The position numbers and the translations under genes are program-made. This document shows, one piece after another, positions 183 through 46,144 of a DNA stretch of 64,000 nt (position 1 is the first letter of the stretch; every line of letters begins with the position of its first letter). The DNA is taken from positions 124,001 through 188,000 of the forward strand of contig NC_037326.1 of assembly GCF_000143535.2 (NCBI RefSeq), written 5' to 3'. Source of the stretch: Botrytis cinerea B05.10 (lineage: Eukaryota > Ascomycota > Leotiomycetes > Helotiales > Sclerotiniaceae). The notes beneath the pieces are model-generated. The model made no database searches. It had not been told where the DNA came from and saw nothing but the letters and a program-made list of their open reading frames with translations.

Positions 183-935
183 TTATTTCAATACAGAGTT
201 TATGCCCACAGGCAATACTCCTATTGCAACATAATTGATATCCTTTTGACCCATGAGATAATTCTCTATTATCATTACTTGCAGGGCTTGCATTTGGAAT
301 TCAGTTTCTCGGAGACCTATGAGATTATGGTCCTGGTATGCAAACTTGTAAAAGACTGTTTCATTTATCATAAGAACCCCAGCCTCAATTACAACCCACG
401 AATCTCAGAAACAATCTATAGAAGATACTATAGGAGTTTAATCATATTCGTATAAATCAAAGGCAATAGTAATAACACTTTGAAGGAGGTATGCACTTGC
501 TCGTCGTAGGAAAAAACACACCCTACATCACAATGTATTTTCTGAGGGTATAGTTTTTCTCCTATTATTATTGTTTGTACAAGAAGGATACAAGAGATGT
601 AGCACCCACAATATATAGGTTCTAATTATATAATTGTATTCTATTTAGAGAGCTAGCTATGTATAAGAGGTAATAGGCTTTATATAAACCTACTGAAAAA
701 GCTAGTCTCTTCTTTATTCACTTAAGGCTTTATTACAGTAGCCTTACTACAGTAGTAATTGAATTGAAGTCATTCACTTTGTTCACACAATGACAGTTTT
801 TATAGGCAGTAAGTAGGGCCAGAATATAATATAGTTGGCAAAGGGTATGGCATAGTAACAGCCTAAGTTGGAGTGTATATCTAGCTCCAGAAGAAGGCAA
901 CAACAAGCATCGAATACACTTTTGCTTGGTGCCAT
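183..935 (-). pseudogene. Virus-like element gene, split by a solo LTR
   Basis: Unrecognised gene. The ATG at 935-933 lies 3 nt below the motif CTTAAAACA (947-939, minus strand). The frame is open from 935 to 790, where a 218-bp solo LTR (572-789) interrupts it. Removing the LTR and one 5-bp target duplication brings the frame from 571 leftwards into register. A one-base frameshift near 485 and two further stops precede the final TAA at 183. The intact product would be about 175-180 residues, with a Cys-rich N-terminal stretch. I recognise no motif. It runs in the same direction as the ORFs at 971-1105 and 1156-2232. Decay, spacing and the upstream motif are seen directly; membership of the RNA-polymerase-bearing element is inferred. 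Confidence 0.6.
572..789 (+). mobile_element. Solo LTR, copia-like family (copy 1)
   Basis: A 218-bp sequence running TGTTTGTAC...TTCACACA. It matches the reverse complement of the LTRs at 4052-4271 and 26262-26481 over its whole length, with TG...CA ends and near-identical blocks. The flanking 5-mers are ATTAT (567-571) and ATGAC (790-794), a diverged duplication. No internal retrotransposon region is present, so it is a solo LTR left by LTR-LTR recombination. It sits inside the gene at 183-935. The superfamily guess rests only on LTR size, ends and 5-bp duplication. Confidence 0.8.
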
Positions 936-938
936 TAT

Positions 939-977
939 TGTTTTAAGAGCAACTACCAGCTGTGTAAATTTTAAGCT
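939..977 (-). promoter_or_regulatory. Two copies of the junction motif CTTAAAA
   Basis: On the minus strand AGCTTAAAATTTACAC (977-962) contains the TAA stop of the 971-1105 ORF. CTTAAAACA (947-939) lies 3 nt before the ATG at 935. The same core occurs at three junctions in the second block (46847, 47587, 48742). It is probably a promoter or a combined terminator/promoter of the virus-like element. Function is inferred from position only. Confidence 0.5.
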
Positions 978-1105
978 GATCCTATATTGTTATGTATCAT
1001 TGCGTTAATTTTGTTCAGAGCCTCGACAGAAGGGGAGCTAAGAGTGCAGGGTCTGGAGTTTTCTTCTTTCTTACCTAAGATCAAGTGTATTGGCTTGGAC
1101 ACCAT
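971..1105 (-). CDS. Small ORF of the virus-like element (44 aa)
   Basis: ATG at 1105-1103, TAA at 973-971 with the stop inside the AGCTTAAAA motif. It lies between the co-directional genes at 1156-2232 and 183-935. No junction motif precedes its ATG, so it may instead be a frameshifted tail of the upstream gene. Composition is unremarkable and I recognise no family. Confidence 0.3.
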   Translation of the reverse strand: MVSKPIHLILGKKEENSRPCTLSSPSVEALNKINAMIHNNIGSA

Positions 1106-1155
1106 TTTTGCAGCGTATTAATCCACGCAGGTTCTGTTGACGGGTATAGAGGAGA

Positions 1156-2232
1156 TTATCTTTCGTGAAAGTTAAAGGTGCCTAGGTACAAGTTTAGCTC
1201 TACTTCGTTAGCTTTCCTGGGGTAACCATATCCTATATTGAAACCAGCACAGGTAGTGGACCTGGACCAGGGGAATGCATAATGAGAGTGGGAGAACTTA
1301 CCAGATGAAGGAACATATATAGAAGAATTGGATAAGGGGATGTACCAAGAGTCGGAGCCTATAGACGACATCACGTCTATAACATCCTTGTCTATAATAC
1401 AACAATCCGGGGCAATAGAGTTAAGGTAAATCCCTAATAATTTAAGGCACAGGTCAAAGAGCTCTTCTCTAGACATAATATGGAGAAGAAAAGAATTGCC
1501 GTTTACAATAGACTCTACTTGATTAAGATTGTCTCTAGTTATAACACACATCACCATAGCTCCGCGCTGTGACACAGAGGTGGCTATGCTCCTGAGGGTA
1601 GGAAAGAAAGGAAGGGGGGAAAAGACTATGAAAGACTGTTGGAAGCACTCCGTAAAATGCAACAACAAACATGTACAAAAATACCTCGCCATGATAAAAT
1701 AACTTTTTTCGGAACTAATATTCGAGGGGGCTGATGAAAAGAGAGCGTATTGACTGAGACAGTGGGGGTCGGATGAAGAGAGGGTGGGTAATATGGCAGC
1801 GTAGCCTAGTCGGTTGGCTGCACAATCTTTGGGTTCGTAAACACCTGCAGAGAATCTGGATTTTGCCATGGTTGGTGGTTGCTGCAACAATGTTGCTTAG
1901 GTCTTTGAAGAAATTACCATAGGGATAATAGTAGCTGTACAAGTGGGTCCTGTGATCACTACGTCGGACTCTGTCAGGTCTTTTGTTTCTTCATTGGAGA
2001 TAAGTGCTACGTACATAGACATACCCACAACACAATAATCAGAGAACCCATCACCTAACATTTGAGGGACTATAGGTCTCACAGGCATTCTCACAGACTC
2101 TGCATACACTCTGTTGTAGATCTCTCTTATCTTTACAGGAAGGCTGTGAGCCACGTAGGGTTGCTTACAAGATCCGCCTGGGCTCCTGCAGCTTACATCT
2201 CTAATTTTGCAATCTGACACTATTTTCCTCAT
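1156..2232 (-). pseudogene. Virus-like element gene b, long frame with one stop
   Basis: From ATG 2232 to TAA 1156 the minus strand reads in one frame for about 358 codons, with a single internal stop (TAA at 1899-1897). The opposite strand is full of stops, so this is likely the true coding strand. The product is rich in Ser, Cys, Ile and Leu and shows no motif I recognise. It faces away from the RNA polymerase gene that begins by 2244, leaving almost no intergenic space. With no junction motif upstream of 2232, the N-terminus may be missing or fused by rearrangement. Confidence 0.55.
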
Positions 2233-2243
2233 AAACCTGCTGA

Positions 2244-3879
2244 GTACGTGTGTGGCCGCACATAGATGTGGGACAGGAGACGGGAAACAAGGTAAACATT
2301 CTTTATTGTACGGGTCTGGCCTGCAATGTCTCCACGGAGACTGTGTGGGAGTTGGTATACGGCCTTAGAGATCGATCTGCTGATTATTATTATAGCTAGT
2401 TCTCGGCAGGGGGGAACAGGAAGCTCACAGCCCCAACTACTTACACGATATACGAGCAGGAGAAAGTGTTGTACATACAAATATCCTCTGGAACTCTAGT
2501 GAGGTCAACCCCTGGGGGTTCTATGGTAGACAGCTGTATTCTCGGGGATCAAGGCGAGAACTCCATAATAGAACATCAACCTCTCCCGTCTGGAGTTCAC
2601 AATGAAATCGAATACAAGCTCTGTCCCTTCTTTTTGTGTGTGCTATATGTAGAGGAAGACAGACCCCCTCATAATCTCTTTGCTGGAGGACAGAGCACAT
2701 AGGTAGTTGTGTACCCTTGGTCTCCTGCTACTGCTCGAGTTATGCCCACGCATCAAGACCTATAGTAGCCACTAAATTCGTGCGCGAGATAGAAGAGGAC
2801 TTCTTTGCAAACGACGACGTGGTGTGGGATGTGTTCCCTGGAGAAGATATGCTCACGTGCTTCCTGAATTGCCCAGACAATTACGAGGACTCTATGATGG
2901 TATCGAGCAGATTCGCAGATATGGGGGGGTTCTTCATTTTGTCCATATGCACATGCAGGATATCTGACAGAGAGGCTATGCTCCCCAAAGTGGGTGACAA
3001 GCTCTGTAGACGAAACCATAAGTGGTGGAAAGTTGACTGTACCAGTACTTGTATCTGCAAAATGAACCAGACCAATAACAAGCTAGCCTCTGCAAGTAGA
3101 AGAGTGCCATGGGGTACTGTGAGGGAAGTTATGCGCATGGAGGACGGTCGCATATCCACAAAGTGCTAAGCTACTCACAGATCCTCACAGACGACAAGAT
3201 ATCTACCCTCCATGGCCAGAAGGGTATTGTCAAGATTGTACCTATGCACGAGCTCCCTGTCATAGTGATGCCCTATGGTAGCTAGCTTACTGCCGACATA
3301 TATATGGCTGTAGGCTCAGTGATATCTCGTCAGACGAATAGGCAGATATATGAGGCAACTGAGGGTCTTAGAGCTCTATTAGATGGTAAGATGAGGACTG
3401 TAGAGAAAGTTGCAAACATAGACACAGATGAGTGTAGTTATATAATGGATCCCACAATAGGAGAAATTATAATATGAAGACCCCCCCGGAAAGGGTTATG
3501 TCCGGTGAAGGCCACAGTGGGGTGCACGCGCGTAATAAACCAGAGTCAGCTCACTCGGGAGAAACATCAGCTTATACACAAGACGGAGAGTAAGTACAGC
3601 ACTGGAACGAAGTCAGGAAGAGTAGATGGAGGAGGTGTGGCTGTATCGGAAATGAATTTTTAGGTAATATTCTTGTTTGGATTGTACATATATATTTAGA
3701 AGTTGTTCAATTGAGGAGATATATATTTGGTTTCTATATACAGAAATTGTAATGTCATATAAATACTTTATAATTGTATAGAAAATGTATATGTACCTAT
3801 TTTGATATTTAATGAAATTGTAATTCTTAATCAAGTATCTATAATATTAAATGGATCTTGTAATCGATGCATAATATAG
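2244..3879 (+). pseudogene. RNA polymerase second-largest (RPB2/beta-like) subunit, C-terminal half, decayed
   Basis: DNA-directed RNA polymerase subunit remnant. Three frames must be joined: 2244-2702, 2717-3169 and 3169-3879. In order, 2460-2520 has a short beta-strand block ending in SSGTLVR, like the RPB2 stretch before its wall domain. At 2879-2893 is NYEDS, the NxEDS core of the polymerase signature, followed by FADMGGFF. At 3190-3225 are DDK and HGQKG, matching the GDKF..RHGQKG motif. SGRVDGGG at 3613-3636 and the following SEMNF match the GRSRDGGLRFGEME block. At 3790-3850 an AT-rich stretch still reads YVPILIF..., like the RPB2 tail that packs on the clamp. Stops lie at 2397, 3283, 3475 and beyond 3652. 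The N-terminal half is absent. RPB2 homology is firm; viral or plasmid origin is inferred. Confidence 0.9.
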
Positions 3880-3887
3880 TATATTTG

Positions 3888-3900
3888 ATTTTAAAACTTA
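3888..3900 (+). promoter_or_regulatory. Degenerate junction motif before gene d
   Basis: GATTTTAAAACTT lies between the polymerase stop (3877-3879) and the ATG at 3911. It shares the TTAAAAC core with the junction motif at 939-947, 46847, 47587 and 48742. It is a weaker match, in DNA that has drifted towards AT. Confidence 0.3.
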
Positions 3901-3910
3901 TATGTGAGAT

Positions 3911-4390
3911 ATGTTTATAGTCAGATTAGAACATATCTTTTTTATATTCTCCCTCCTTCATTTAGTCAGAATAGGTACTATATCTGAGGCTGACATAGAA
4001 GAAGATACTAGGGGTATATCGTTAAGGTCTATCACGGGCTCTATATATTTGTGTGTGAACGAAATGAATAACTTCAATTCAATTACCACTGTAATATAGC
4101 AACTATAATAAAGCCCTAAGCGAATGCAAAAGAGACTAGTTTTTTTAGTAAGCCTTTATAAGGCTTACTACTTTCAATACGTAGCTAGCTCTTTCGACAG
4201 AATACAATTAGATATACAGGACCTACGATATTCGTGGGTACTACGTCTTCCGTATCCTTATTGTACCAACAATTTGTCGTCCAAGCCTTACTTTACTTTA
4301 ACTACAGCATGTGCCAACTGCTGTCAGTCAAAACACCCTTTCACACCAAAAATCATTATTTCTATGTATAGTTTTTATTATCATTATTAA
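3911..4390 (+). pseudogene. Virus-like element gene d, split by a solo LTR
   Basis: ATG at 3911, 31 nt below the RNA polymerase stop. The frame runs to 4051, is interrupted by an LTR (4052-4271) plus its 5-bp duplication, and resumes in the same phase at 4277. It continues to TAA 4388-4390. The C-terminal part has a Cys cluster, ACANCC, that could be half of a zinc ribbon. The same frame stays partly readable through the AT-rich stretch to about 4570, so the gene may end there, convergent with the capping-like gene. No family recognised. Confidence 0.5.
4052..4271 (-). mobile_element. Solo LTR, copia-like family (copy 2), exact 5-bp duplication
   Basis: A 220-bp LTR; on the minus strand it begins TGTTGGTAC and ends TTCACACA. 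It is flanked by an exact 5-bp duplication ATTTG (4047-4051 and 4272-4276). It has the same family as the copies at 572-789 and 26262-26481, in opposite orientation to copy 1. It splits gene d. Confidence 0.9.
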
Positions 4391-4582
4391 TATAATATAA
4401 TTTTTTCTTCTTATAAATTAATTTTATTTTAAGAAAATTTTAGTAAAAATGAGATCGATTATTTTTTAGATTTTTATTTATCAAGTTATATAAATAGAAA
4501 GTTAGAGTATTATTAAAATAATTTGATTTATTAATAAAATAAGCGAAAATCAAATAATTTTTCTTTGAGAGACTGCAATAGA

Positions 4583-5283
4583 TTACACTACCACGTCCGA
4601 GTTAGTTGTTACCTTGTCTGAACTCTCAAAATGCTTGTGTATACATACCTTTCCGTCACAAATGGAGAAGTGTAGCTTTATTATGGAGCTTACAGGATAT
4701 GAATGAGAACCCGAGACTTTCATGGGTTCAGTTCCTTCGCTTGTAGACAGGATACCTTCTTCTTCAAGCCTCAGCTCCATGGACTTGGTGTCATTAATCT
4801 TCCTTATGCTGTATTGCCGAGAGACATAGCCATTAGACCATCTATAGGGTATACCACAGTGAGGGAGTACTCTCTGGCATCCCATAGTATAGAAAAGAGT
4901 GGCCTGCAATGTATGTTTGAAAGGAAGAGGTACACGCGTGTGAGTTCTTCCATCCTGTCCTTTATCCATTCCACCTTGCGCGTGTGGGGAGACAAATTCA
5001 TATCTCCGTCACAAAGTACATCTATCAATGTTGGATCAAACCCCAGTATTACATCGACGTCTACAACTGGTCCCAGGACTGACTTGGACACAGGGGTTAC
5101 AATAGAATCTACGATCCAGCACACTATAGAGTAGTTTGTCAAGCACCGACAGTAAAACCACATGAACCCACACTTTACCATACACATCCTTTCTCCATCA
5201 AGCTTTGTGCTCAATGTGTGTTGATATTCCTGTACAGAGAATGCATCATATGCAGGTGAATTCATGTTTGACATGGAACCCAA
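4583..5283 (-). pseudogene. Nucleotidyltransferase, mRNA capping guanylyltransferase-like, frameshifted
   Basis: Two overlapping minus frames (5283-4804 and 4969-4583) carry the ordered motifs of the covalent nucleotidyltransferase superfamily (capping enzymes and ATP/NAD ligases). Motif I is KLDGER at 5205-5188, with Lys as the expected nucleotidyl acceptor. A motif-IV-like PIDGLM is at 4848-4831. After a frameshift near 4805-4815, a motif-V-like KSMELR is at 4786-4769. Linked to an RNA polymerase subunit in the same element, an mRNA capping role is more likely than ligation, but the motifs alone do not exclude a ligase. No methyltransferase domain is visible. The stop is at 4583. Confidence 0.65.
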
Positions 5284-5575
5284 ATTTACACTGCTTATTT
5301 ATGAGGGCAAGCCCCTGGGTACAAAGCCTCTTGTATGAGAGCATCTTCCTGGCGCCCTAATATGACCACACCGTAAGACTTTTGGTGATACTCAAAGTGT
5401 GAGTATGCATCCCATAGCTCTACCAAGGAAGAGGATATCTCGAGACTCTTGCTGTATGCATTAAGAGAAAGCCTCTAACCTTTCGTGTCAAGGACACACT
5501 TGCCCTCCCAAAGCCCTGTAGTGTAATATCCAAATATCCTAGATTCTGAATCTAATAAGAGTTCAGGCTATTACT
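5284..5575 (-). pseudogene. Gene remnant upstream of the capping-like domain
   Basis: A minus frame of about 88 codons, read with one TAG near 5480, ends at TAA close to 5300, just upstream of the nucleotidyltransferase frame. It may be the N-terminal part of the same enzyme, since motif I lies only 27 codons from the next frame's start, which is unusually close. It could equally be a separate gene. At about 5575 the sequence passes into AT-rich DNA. Confidence 0.4.
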
Positions 5576-41327: not shown

Positions 41328-43806
41328 CCCTGTAGTAACAAAGTTAATACTTTCGATGAAAAGAAATTCAATATAAATTCTTATATAAATTTTCATATAT
41401 ATTTTACAATAATAATATATTCATTTTGTTATTAACAATATAATCAATTCATTAATAATAAATAAAATCAATACAATTTGAGATTTGTTTAGTATTGATT
41501 TTTAATAGAAAAAAAGAAAATGAGAATTCTAAAGGGCCTTAAAGATTTCAGAATTCAATGAATATTAGAATTGTAGAAAAGGTGAATAGAAAGGGAATGA
41601 ATATAAGAGTTAGAAGGAGAAGGGGAGCGAATATAAAAGTTATAAAGTGTTACGAAACGTTGATGTAGAACCAACATCGGACCAATCATTTATTTGATAT
41701 AAAGTTTTCATATTATATATAATTTTATTTTAAAAAGGATTGAAAAAAGTAATAAAAAATCTTATATTCTTTTGAATCTTATTATATATTAATTGTTATT
41801 TTGTATTGATTCTAATAATTCTTTTTATTCAATTTTTTTAAAATAAATTGTTGATTAATTTTTGGGAATAGTTTTAAAAAACTTTGAAAGTTTTAAAACT
41901 TTTTTAGGCTACAATATATTTATAATATATTATTGATATATAAGCAATGATATTTAAATTATTGAAATATCTTTTATTTTTATAAAATTGAATTGAAAGA
42001 ATATTAAAAAAGAAAGTTTTTATAAATCGAATTTTTTAAAAATACTTATAAAGTACTTTTATAATATATCTTCAATATTCTTTCGAAATGAAATAGAATA
42101 ATTGAATAAAAGTTAGGAAAGGAGGGGAAATATTGAAGAAAAGAATCTCTCTTTTGGAAAGCAAACCTTATCTTAAACAATACTTATAAAATGTTAACAG
42201 TGTATTTAAATTCTATTATTAAAATAATAATACCTTTATATAATACCTAAGGCTTTTTATATAAAAAAAAGTTTAGTTAATTATTATATAATTAGTTAGA
42301 ATTTATTAGTGGAAATCAATTGCAAATGGCTAATATCACATCAAATAGTTTGTATTTAGTAAAAGATAAAACAATATTTATACTAGAATCATTTATTTGG
42401 GAATACAAATAGATCATTTTATAGAATTCCAGGCCTCTCAAGCATTCTCCGTATTTTATAGGATTTCATACATTTTACAGGATTCCAGGCCTCTCAAGCA
42501 TTCTCCGCATTTTACAGGATTTTACAGGATTTCAGGATTTCTTTTAGGTTTCGAGGACTCAGCGGAAAGCCAGTGGAGCTCCGCATTTTACAGGATTTTA
42601 CAGGATTTTACAGGATTCTCTGCATTTTACAGGATTTTATACGATTTCATACATTTTATAGGATTCTATATGTTTTATAAGATTTTACAAGATTTTCGGG
42701 ATTTCTGTGTTTGGTTAGCTCAATACTAATGGGACGCCATCGATTCCTAATTTCTTAGATTTTCGAACTTTTAGAACTTTCGAGTCTTCAGATTTTCGAA
42801 TTTTCAGATTTTTGAATTTTCAGATTTTCAAGCTTTTATAACTTTCGAGGGCGAAAACTGAAAAGGGGGAGGCAGCCTTATCAAATATAAATCATTATTT
42901 TATTGAAAACGAAACAATACTAATAAAATAAAGGAAAGGAAATAACTATTTTTCGAATTTTCGAATTTTGAAGATTTTAAAGGTTTTAAAAGATTCAATT
43001 TAGTTTTTAATACTCTTATACTACAATATAATTTTTAGAATTATAAAAAAGCTGAATTTTATAAAATAAGAATATAAATATTATAATAAACTTATTATTA
43101 TAAAATTTAATAAGATTTCAAAAATACATCAATATAATAAAAGAAATTTATTAAATAAACTTTAAAACTTTCGAATTTTTTATAATATTTATAATTTTCA
43201 AAAACAAAAGCTTTGAAAAAAAAAACTCTATTACAAAATATCAATATAAAATCAATATCGAACCAATCATTTATCCGATATAAAATTTTCATATTATATA
43301 TAACTTTATTTTAAAAAGGATTGAAAAAAGCAATGAAAAGTCTTATATTCTTTTGGATCCTATTATACACTAGTTGTCACCTTGTATTGACTCTAACATA
43401 AAGTAAATAAAAGATATTAATTGAAAACTTAAAGAGAAAGGGGAAAAGGAATAAAAAACAAATTATTTATATTATTTTCAATTTATTCTTTAATCAAAAG
43501 TTTTATTATTATACTATACTATATACTATATATATATATTTCCTATTTAGCTTTCAATTTATATATTTATATTCAATTCAATTACTAATCAAATTCAATA
43601 GAAATAAAGTATTAATTATTTTAAACTAAAATTCTAAAAAATTATTAAATCCCTTTAGAATAAAAATTTCTAATTATTTATTAAAAAATTATTCACTTAA
43701 TCAATAATTGAAAAACGCTTTTTTTAATATATTATAAAAATATTGAATATTTTTTTAGGATAATAAAGCGGCCATTTCATCAATCGCGGATTCTGCCACC
43801 ACAGGG
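41328..43806. mobile_element. Inverted-repeat transposon, copy 3, with a nested LTR element
   Basis: The left end CCCTGTAGTAACA (41328-41340) and right end TGCCACCACAGGG (43794-43806) match the transposon at 25476 in reverse orientation. An exact 3-bp duplication ATG flanks it (41325-41327, 43807-43809). Subtracting the LTR element at 41648-43398 and its duplication leaves about 723 bp, close to the 737-743 bp of the other copies. It is inserted in the last codons of the DUF6589-like gene. Confidence 0.9.
41648..43398. mobile_element. Short gene-less LTR element, copy 2 (nested)
   Basis: LTRs 41648-41817 and 43229-43398 (170 bp) enclose a 1.4-kb interior. An exact 5-bp duplication TAAAG is present (41643-41647, 43399-43403). 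Same family as 9673-11424. The interior minisatellite of TTTTACAGGA-like units (about 42420-42720) is better preserved than in copy 1. The plus ORF 42397-42729 across it is a repeat artefact. No gag/pol. Confidence 0.9.
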
Positions 43807-46144
43807 ATGTTCCCTCTTTGACTATCAGTTATGAGATCTTGTCTTCGCACCCTGAGTACTTGGGCTGCATTTATTAGAACTAAAATATCATTACCCTCGT
43901 CGTCGTAGCCTTCATTGTCCTTCTCGACATTATCTGCATTCTCTTCAGCTTCGTCGAAATAATCCGGATCATTATCATAGGCCCCAATGCTATCCATCAT
44001 AACTGGTGAATCTAAAGGAGCATCAATATCTTCTCCAGCAGACCTATCAGTAACATCTATTTCCAACAAATCATCATCTATATCATATTTCTTATTCAAA
44101 ATATATGATTTGGCCTTATTGATATCGTAGGAAACGATGGCCCCAATATCTTTTAGGTAAACATTCGGTCGTACAATTGTCTGCGTTGCAGGCTCTTGAC
44201 GATCCATGATTTTGTCGTGGCGTATCGTATCTGCTATACCCAGAACCTCCCTTTCCATTGAGGGGTAATAATGACGGCCTTTGATATCAATCTCTTTGTC
44301 ACTCAAATGACAATTCAAGAAAGCCATTTTACAGTCGTACAAGGGTCCGGCTGCTAATGCCGTCCACTTTTTAAGTTGCTGAATTTGAAAGGAGCCGCCT
44401 TTCTCTCGATATGCTGTTTTGATAATGCGAACCTCCTGCTCACAGGCTGCATCCACTGTCATAAACCATCCAAGTTTTGCTTTCATAAGAGCCCATCTAT
44501 CATGTTGTCGTATTGGTCCGGAGTACAATCATAGATACTATCTCCCTTGTATACTTATGACTACTAGTTCCGGCCATCCACGGAAGAAGAATCTCAAGTA
44601 TAGGACCAACCTTTCCTACACGACCATGTTTTCCTGTCTCTTTGAGTTCGTTCAAGGTAAATTCCGATGAAGGCTAACAACTCTCCGGTTTGATCTCGTT
44701 GAGAGAGTGGTGTACCATTATCATCTATAGCACTATCTGGATTCCTTTCACACCTCACACTACTACTGAACAGATCATTATATAATGGATCGATAATAGT
44801 CTGTCGAACCTTGTCTTTACCCGTCTTCATCAGTTCCTTCGCTGCGTAGTTTATTCGTTCTTCTTGATCGGCTAGTGGATCAGGGTGAGGCAATCTCTCA
44901 CGTACCCACTCCAAGATATGAGCACGTCGTGTCGTGATCAATAGATCCTCTAGCTTCCGGAAATTAATAATTTTGTCGTCGCCGAACCCCTTCAGATTCA
45001 GATATTGAATACCTGCATCTAAATGTGCGAAATCTTTGCATCTTTTTTGTCGGTAGAGTTCCAGGATAATTATATTAGCCTAACAAATATCAATGGTTCG
45101 GTTATCTATATTCTTTATTCCTTCCAATCTCTTTGAGCTTTTCGGATTGCGCTCTAGCTAATGCCTCGGTGATTTCTGTCGATGCAACAGTACCAATGCA
45201 TATACCTAGTCGTTGTAGGGTTTCTTGAACAATTTGTGGTACACTATATGATTGTAAAGCCATACCAACATGGGTTTGCGTCAACCGGAGAGTCTGATTG
45301 TATGTATATGATAGTATATTTATAGCCATACTAATGGGAAGAGCTTCAGTCTGAAGTCGAGTTGCACGCTTTACTTCTTCCAATTTCGAAGTACTCTCCC
45401 AGTTTTTGCGTACATTGTTTGCAACAAGACTAGTCAAGAACTTCCATGTAGTTGGTAAGTGGACTTGGAATATCTTCCCAGTATTTTCAATAAAATTGTC
45501 CGCAATTGCCTCCGGAACAACATTTGCAGTTTTGAGTGCTGGGAAAGAAAGAACATACTCACCAGAAACAATGGATTAAGTTAGCTTATTACCAGTGGGG
45601 GGGATCTCTTGGTCGATTGTCTGATCTTTATTGAAGCTATCGAACTCCGTTTTAGATATACGTATAAAAGCATCAGTAAGAGCCTCTCTATATGCCCTAG
45701 TTTGGACTATCCACTTGTCGATTTCACGTTTCTTTTTTGCATAAGATTCAACATTCTTTAACAAATTGGGAAGCCCGCGATTCCATTCATAATAATTTGC
45801 CATAGCACATTCTTTTGAAGTATTATCATCTATCTTCCGTGGTGTAGAGTTAGTCGTTAATATAGCACACAAGAAATCCGTAGTACACTCGAAACCAGCA
45901 TTTTTCAGACATTGTAATCCGAATTTGACTTTTGAGCTAGAGTATACTGTGCCATATCGATCAGTGGTATATTGCTTGCCGATGTAGTGAATTGAGGTGC
46001 ATCTTTTGAGGGGGATGAATATACACCAGATCTCATCAACTGTCTGTCAATATGGTTATTTTGGCTAATGGTCCCATGATATAGTGATTGGGATGGTAAT
46101 TCATGCGTTTGCGGTATATATGGCGGCGAACTTGGGGGATCCAA
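43807..46144 (-). pseudogene. DUF6589-like multi-exon gene, frameshifted, with transposon in its tail
   Basis: Minus-strand protein-like segments line up over 2.3 kb: about 46144-45585, then an intron 45592-45539 (GTAATA, GCTAAC branch, CCCAG; phase kept), then 45538 to about 43807. A frameshift near 45120 and a TAG near 45080, another shift near 44650 and another near 44520 must be crossed. The block after 44650 has a PWMAGTSSHKYTREI segment, then GWFMTVDAACEQEV and a Gly-spaced helix. This resembles the C-terminal pattern of fungal DUF6589 proteins (GAG..NY..E, then an end-of-domain EH.N-like helix). The assignment is from memory of the family pattern and is moderate to weak. The final visible codons come from the inserted transposon; without it the frame would stop five codons later. 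Confidence 0.5.

Follow-up and report, generated by a model that had tools for sequence, protein, structure and literature searches.

A GC-richer island of about 6 kb on a mini-chromosome of Botrytis cinerea B05.10 contains an RPB2-like RNA polymerase gene and, beside it, a gene with the motifs of a capping-type nucleotidyltransferase. The island lies at the left edge of the stretch of DNA analyzed here (the window, 64,000 bases, C17:124001-188000), in a genome of 42,630,066 bases and 18 contigs; coordinates without a contig name refer to the window. Our analysis supports the presence of this gene pair, side by side and broken, in nuclear, repeat-bearing DNA. We consider the island probably to be the nuclear fossil of a double-stranded DNA (dsDNA) element that transcribed its genes in the cytoplasm, either a large DNA virus or a virus-like linear plasmid. 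A sequence-only reading had proposed a virus-like or linear-plasmid-like origin; the broken polymerase/capping-type pair and the apparent lack of a recent host copy bear out the general idea, but they do not show whether the source was a virus or a plasmid, or which lineage it came from.

The RPB2-like and capping-type genes

Searching the genome in six frames with PF00562 (Rpb2_6) gave four matches: the second subunits of host RNA polymerases (Pol) III on C4, II on C14, and I on C3, assigned by reading the frames, and a fourth, weak one in the window at 3187-3399. This fourth match covers model positions 223-290 of 373, reads through one TAG, and scores 24.2 bits against a cut-off of 23.4 (0.8 above it; E = 2.8e-4 genome-wide).

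For a further test a profile was assembled from subunits of the host and of viruses; four viral rows that contain inteins or are partial (L046, L063, L064, and L065) had been dropped beforehand. The profile found nine ungapped segments that are collinear on both the DNA and the model, starting in domain 4 (2283) and ending in the GGLRxGEME block (3657), with a chain score of 83.8. The best control chains scored 63.9 among 648 other windows of 1.5 kb taken from both strands of C17, 60.3 among 200 first-order Markov resamples (the kind used throughout this work), and 40.7 on the reverse strand. The segment threshold and chain settings were fixed after a first pass at a lower threshold, and the margin is somewhat flattering.

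The segments fall in three frames of the plus strand. The domain 4 to 5 part, at 2244..2699, is one frame with one stop and holds segments at 2283-2357 (13.5 bits), 2418-2504 (14.8 bits), and 2562-2612 (11.2 bits), corresponding in order to model columns 79-103, 159-187, and 240-256. The part with the NYEDSMMVSSRFADMGGF motif, at 2750..3166, lies in a second frame (stop-free from 2675 to 3166), with segments scoring 14.1, 22.0, and 11.8 bits at model columns 313-327, 346-363, and 459-468. The third part, at 3178..3660, occupies a third frame with two stops and contains DKISTLHGQKG, an SRQT block, and GRVDGGGVAVSEMN, with segments of 30.2, 17.5, and 19.3 bits in model order. Collinear conserved RPB2 blocks of domains 4 to 6/7 are present in the element. 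The RPB2-like frames had been placed at 2244-3879; their family and strand stand, on both the PF00562 match and the nine-segment chain, but the RPB2-like stretch ends near 3660, beyond which the DNA is AT-rich and repeat-bearing.

Stops and frame changes disrupt the RPB2-like gene, and its first half is missing. Nothing resembling an N-terminal half was recognized by eye upstream of 2244, where the opposite strand holds a gene without known family (1159..2364, described below), and the island gave no Rpb2_7 match. What is left is compact, as the stretch 2283-3193 has about 303 codons for 411 model columns. ISRQT stands in the element where the host and most of the viral rows printed have PSRMT.

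The RPB2 pieces were found at no other place in the genome, and no relatives of an RPB2 piece were listed among phages and prokaryote genomes. In a small blastp set, 3286-3474 shows 31% identity over 54 amino acids to the viral RPB2 L065 (E = 4e-4); in the same set an RPB2 piece also matched a stretch that is out of frame, at E = 0.002, and single matches at such a level are unsafe. An amidase likeness of one RPB2 piece (E = 0.0019 for the whole sequence, with no single good stretch) was dismissed as chance, and the two matches of the SRQT block pattern in viral contigs were rejected as both lie in stop-filled frames. One contig of a viral catalogue encodes a relative of an RPB2 piece, perhaps from this or a very near genome, and the catalogue may already hold this island.

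The second gene of the pair lies on the minus strand. Motif reading identified a nucleotidyltransferase-like piece at 4807..5298, with motif I (KLDGER, from 5205) followed 121 codons later by motif IV (DGLM, from 4842). It continues in another frame at 4586..4840, within a stop-free stretch (4586-5008), where a motif V-like KSMELR (4786-4769) and then a motif VI-like SSDKVTTN (DKxxxN from 4618) occur. A short minus-strand frame upstream, read at 5298..5474, is possibly but uncertainly its start. KLDGER, DGLM, and KSMELR had already been named in the sequence-only reading and are confirmed here, with DKxxxN added.

Motifs I (KxDGxR), IV (DGhh), and VI (DKxxxN) were found in this order at a single place when both strands of C17 were scanned, and in none of 5000 resamples, 19 of which contained motif I; the pattern was written after the sequence had been seen. 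The motif VI-like site is without the usual arginine before DK. A DG instead of EG at motif IV favors a capping enzyme over a ligase. Judged by its motifs, the nucleotidyltransferase is probably a capping enzyme. Across the genome, PF01331 matched only the host capping enzyme gene on C13, and the host set is ordinary, with one capping enzyme and three second subunits. No pieces of the nucleotidyltransferase were found elsewhere in the genome, and no relatives of a nucleotidyltransferase piece were listed in viral contigs and plasmids.

The island in its mini-chromosome

C17 comprises 247,158 bases and carries TTAGGG-type repeats at both termini, indicating that it is a whole mini-chromosome, telomere to telomere. 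A published description lists chromosomes 17 and 18 of B05.10 as minichromosomes with 18 and 16 genes, one chromosome 17 gene being nonribosomal peptide synthetase-like (PMC9861337).

The island extends from approximately window position -720 to 5570 inside AT-rich DNA. It had been delimited as 183..5575, but it runs past the left edge of the window, where a 195-codon minus-strand frame lies at C17:123295-123879. Its coding parts have 41-50% GC, compared with 15-27% immediately outside, and the GC dips at and around repeat insertions. The TpA/ApT ratio is 1.02 at 1101-3660 and 0.90 at 4581-5560, compared with 0.47, 0.48, and 0.67 in three long frames presumed to be host genes, and CpG is lower in the island than in most gene-rich stretches of C17. 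For the same two stretches a second index gave 1.12 and 1.19, outside the range typical of repeat-induced point mutation.

Dispersed repeats interrupt the island. A partly palindromic repeat of about 220 bp is present at 570..789 (best match elsewhere 91%) and, inverted, at 4052..4273 (95% to copies on C6 and C5); a different repeat, 89% identical to C8:838977-839231, lies at 4309..4564 beside the end of the nucleotidyltransferase-like gene. The family of about 220 bp looks like a family of miniature inverted-repeat transposable elements. With 40 of 151 candidates scored, it has at least 38 full-length loci on other contigs than C17, each 88-95% identical to whichever window copy is nearer. 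The two window copies are only 79% alike and each is nearer to its matches elsewhere, indicating that they arrived separately. The 174-nt inverted arms 616-789 and 4052-4225, considered as terminal inverted repeats of the element, were rejected because they belong to these separate copies.

Nesting of these copies shows that the island is in nuclear DNA and has been there long enough for insertions, in agreement with the description of the region as nuclear and transposon-invaded. Since the island sits inside a telomere-to-telomere contig and contains copies of the genome's own dispersed repeats, a misassembled contaminant is an unlikely source. The few lesions per gene suggest that the decay is not ancient.

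Origin of the element

To produce usable mRNA outside the nucleus, an element requires a polymerase subunit together with a capping-type enzyme. We read the island as a captured piece of such an element. While the element was alive, its RPB2-like subunit would have produced mRNA in the cytoplasm together with partners that were not found here, and capping of this mRNA would have fallen to the nucleotidyltransferase. A piece of the element would then have been captured into the dispensable mini-chromosome and would have lost the first half of RPB2 as well as the termini of other genes; stops and frame changes would have been acquired, and the host's short dispersed repeats inserted. Capping function, cytoplasmic life, capture, and present loss of function are steps that we infer from the genes and their setting.

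We compared the RPB2-like stretch with reference second subunits, those of the host and viral ones among them, over 202 columns. These were picked for fit, and the identity figures are if anything high; 37 of 39 reference rows had at least 100 of the columns and were kept. Identity is 22.3% to host Pol I, 23.3% to Pol II, and 27.2% to Pol III, within a range of 20.8-29.7% for all 37 rows. The element shares with the host second subunits (L003, L002, and L001 for Pol I, II, and III) the order of conserved RPB2 blocks and the HGQKG block, and differs from them in this low identity, in its shorter spacing, and in having ISRQT for PSRMT. At 22-27% identity, the stretch appears not to be a recent copy of a host Pol I, II, or III subunit, a conclusion supported by these alignments. 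Decay alone is an unlikely source of the distance because the frames are still long.

A tree was calculated from the element and 26 hand-chosen reference rows (27 rows in all), near-copies and short rows being left out. The element falls on the viral side: the smallest starred set holding it has 12 rows, of which nine are viral and three are in no group (the element, L102, and L135), with 96/100 and a very long branch. The element's own end branch is 7.3 changes per column, so its position is not reliable. The phylogeny that the sequence-only reading had proposed as a check therefore leans to the viral side, and a grouping with host Pol I, II, or III appears disfavored, but neither is settled by this tree. 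Separately, a Pol II-like subunit of L101, from a sheep rumen metagenome-assembled genome titled Acholeplasmatales, groups with the fungal one at 100/100; that contig is probably a contaminant.

Several results weigh against our reading of the island or qualify it. Clades of the element with Pol I, II, or III cost 6.3, 2.9, and 6.3 log units and are not rejected at 0.05 by the approximately unbiased (AU) test (p = 0.088, 0.077, and 0.083). Identity of the element to viral rows is not above that to archaea or to Pol III, which ranks third of the 37 rows. The best single RPB2 piece scores only 10.5 bits alone, yet it ranks first among 6989 C17 frames. The capping-type assignment, for which the motif triple speaks, finds no significant match to the host capping enzyme or to known families: the chain against the host enzyme scored 71.7 and was exceeded in 8 of 326 control windows, and the two nucleotidyltransferase pieces gave no Pfam (for the 4807..5298 piece even at E = 10), NCBIfam, or PDB match and a best PHROGs E of 0.24. 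No relatives of the 1159..2364 gene were found, viral contigs included. In the rest of the window, GC is 37-48% for most long frames, so that the higher GC of the island relative to its flanks, although real, is by itself no mark of foreign origin. Among viral and plasmid hallmarks, the genome has no match to PF04947 (VLTF3), PF16903 (capsid N-domain), or PF08706 (D5), nor to PF03175 (DNA_pol_B_2, the protein-primed B-family polymerase), which a fragment may merely lack; these negatives are weak in that PF04947 and PF16903 matched nothing in the control genomes either and PF03175 gave one control match, under the cut-off. PF00623 (RPB1) has three matches only, the number expected for host Pol I, II, and III.

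As a narrower form of our reading, a source within Nucleocytoviricota, for example near the asfarvirus-like lineage of Rhizophagus, is quite possible, though short of probable. One study states that fungi have no known dsDNA virus to date, and it infers that viruses of this phylum occur in them; the evidence for fungal dsDNA viruses consists of genes in basal fungi and virus genomes from sites where Ascomycota are the main eukaryotes (PMC10640383). The same study describes a 1.5-Mb asfarvirus-related endogenous region of Rhizophagus irregularis with five markers (PolB, two RNA polymerase subunits, an mRNA capping enzyme, and VLTF3), MCP and D5 not being found there (PMC10640383). Both that region and the Botrytis island are insertions in fungal chromosomes with genes for an RNA polymerase subunit and for mRNA capping, the latter capping-type by motifs here; that region, however, is 1.5 Mb long, has PolB and VLTF3, and belongs to an arbuscular mycorrhizal fungus, whereas the island is about 6 kb, broken, and in a filamentous ascomycete. 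The position of the element on the viral side, on its end branch of 7.3, is consistent with such a virus. The unmatched VLTF3, capsid, and D5 families (the first two without positive control) and the unremarkable identity to viral rows speak against it, as do the PDB sequence matches: those of two RPB2 pieces include no virus polymerase, and a third piece has no match at all.

A second narrower form of our reading, with a pGKL-kind cytoplasmic linear plasmid that had its own RNA polymerase and capping enzyme, in a filamentous ascomycete, as the source, is also possible, though short of probable. Cytoplasmic linear plasmids have a fused RPB2-RPB1-like RNA polymerase. The compactness of the element's RPB2 and its ISRQT fit this source, but the genome's RPB1 matches, limited to the host three, and the unmatched DNA_pol_B_2 do not. 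Such plasmids carry a capping enzyme and a 987-residue RNA polymerase large subunit, both on one plasmid in yeast virus-like elements such as Debaryomyces hansenii pDH4C, and the hosts described for them there are Ascomycota yeasts and one basidiomycete species (PMC8472843). Compared by published description, these plasmids and the island share a polymerase and a capping enzyme together on a compact element; the plasmids are free in the cytoplasm, whereas the island is nuclear, broken, and in a genome without a match to the protein-primed polymerase B.

Tentatively, filamentous ascomycetes may have their own, so far undescribed lineage of dsDNA viruses or plasmids that transcribe in the cytoplasm and belong neither to the yeast linear plasmids nor to a known nucleocytovirus family, with this island as its first trace. 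Among the open-licence papers listed, none has a title or abstract opening that describes the island. If our reading is correct, a fossil with an apparently non-host polymerase subunit and a capping-type enzyme in a well-studied ascomycete would extend the evidence for dsDNA viruses to filamentous ascomycetes. The island would also serve as a query for seeking living relatives, and it bears on the build-up of foreign DNA in a dispensable mini-chromosome.

A host origin is improbable, with the RPB2-like stretch as an ancient, degraded duplicate from Pol I, II, or III and the nucleotidyltransferase motifs either coincidental or left over from a decayed ligase or capping gene of the host. The AU values, the rank of Pol III among the reference rows, and the GC of the other window frames are compatible with such a duplicate; its 22-27% identity would require near-saturation, yet the frames are long, and the blocks are more closely spaced. 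The nuclear large DNA viruses of arthropods also pair an RPB2-like subunit (lef-8) with a capping enzyme (lef-4), but a source akin to them is very improbable, as no scanned piece gave such a match in Pfam, which includes both families. Least probable of all is a chance RPB2 likeness produced by a few short words, for which the weak single pieces, the settings chosen after a first look, and the out-of-frame blastp match could be cited, since the genome-wide PF00562 match and a chain about 20 bits above all 648 windows and 200 resamples oppose it.

Other frames and neighboring DNA

The gene at 1159..2364 (minus strand) is oriented head to head with the RPB2 piece and consists of the stop-free stretches 1159-1896 and 1900-2364, which form one frame interrupted by a single stop. 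Its 401 codons compare with a maximum of 269 in 500 resamples. Its matches in Pfam, PHROGs, NCBIfam, and PDB sequences reached E = 0.19 at best, and a viral glycoprotein chain likeness (E = 0.2) was set aside as chance. The alignment-free structure predictions of this work were discarded (mean predicted local distance difference test, pLDDT, of 34.8 and 42.7); for this gene, two fold searches with the pLDDT 42.7 model returned no match at E = 0.001 or better. The frame at 186..404 (minus strand) is short and a doubtful gene; its 30K movement protein likeness (PF01107, E = 0.0053, under the cut-off) was rejected, chance matches of this kind being expected with 83 proteins scanned. The proposal of at least three further genes in the island is not upheld, as two of the stretches are one frame and the third, at 183-404, is short and poorly supported.

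The 195-codon frame at the left edge of the island, the first half of which is basic and of low complexity, is possibly a further gene of the element; its matches are far under the cut-offs, the best (E = 0.0015) probably reflecting low complexity. Rfam and tRNA scans of the window found nothing.

A family scan of 83 C17 frames gave 21 families at E ≤ 0.01, part of them by chance. Frames outside the island match UbiA, AMP-binding (two frames) with a phosphopantetheine site, a fungal rhodopsin domain, and a protein kinase. At 43758-46046, four consecutive minus-strand frames of 156-257 codons, without a Pfam match at E = 0.01, look like a single broken long gene. To the left of the window, C17:78001-112000 is 34 kb of even 21% GC in which the longest frame has 111 codons and masked megablast at E = 1e-20 gave no internal repeats; we regard this stretch as a candidate centromere of the mini-chromosome.

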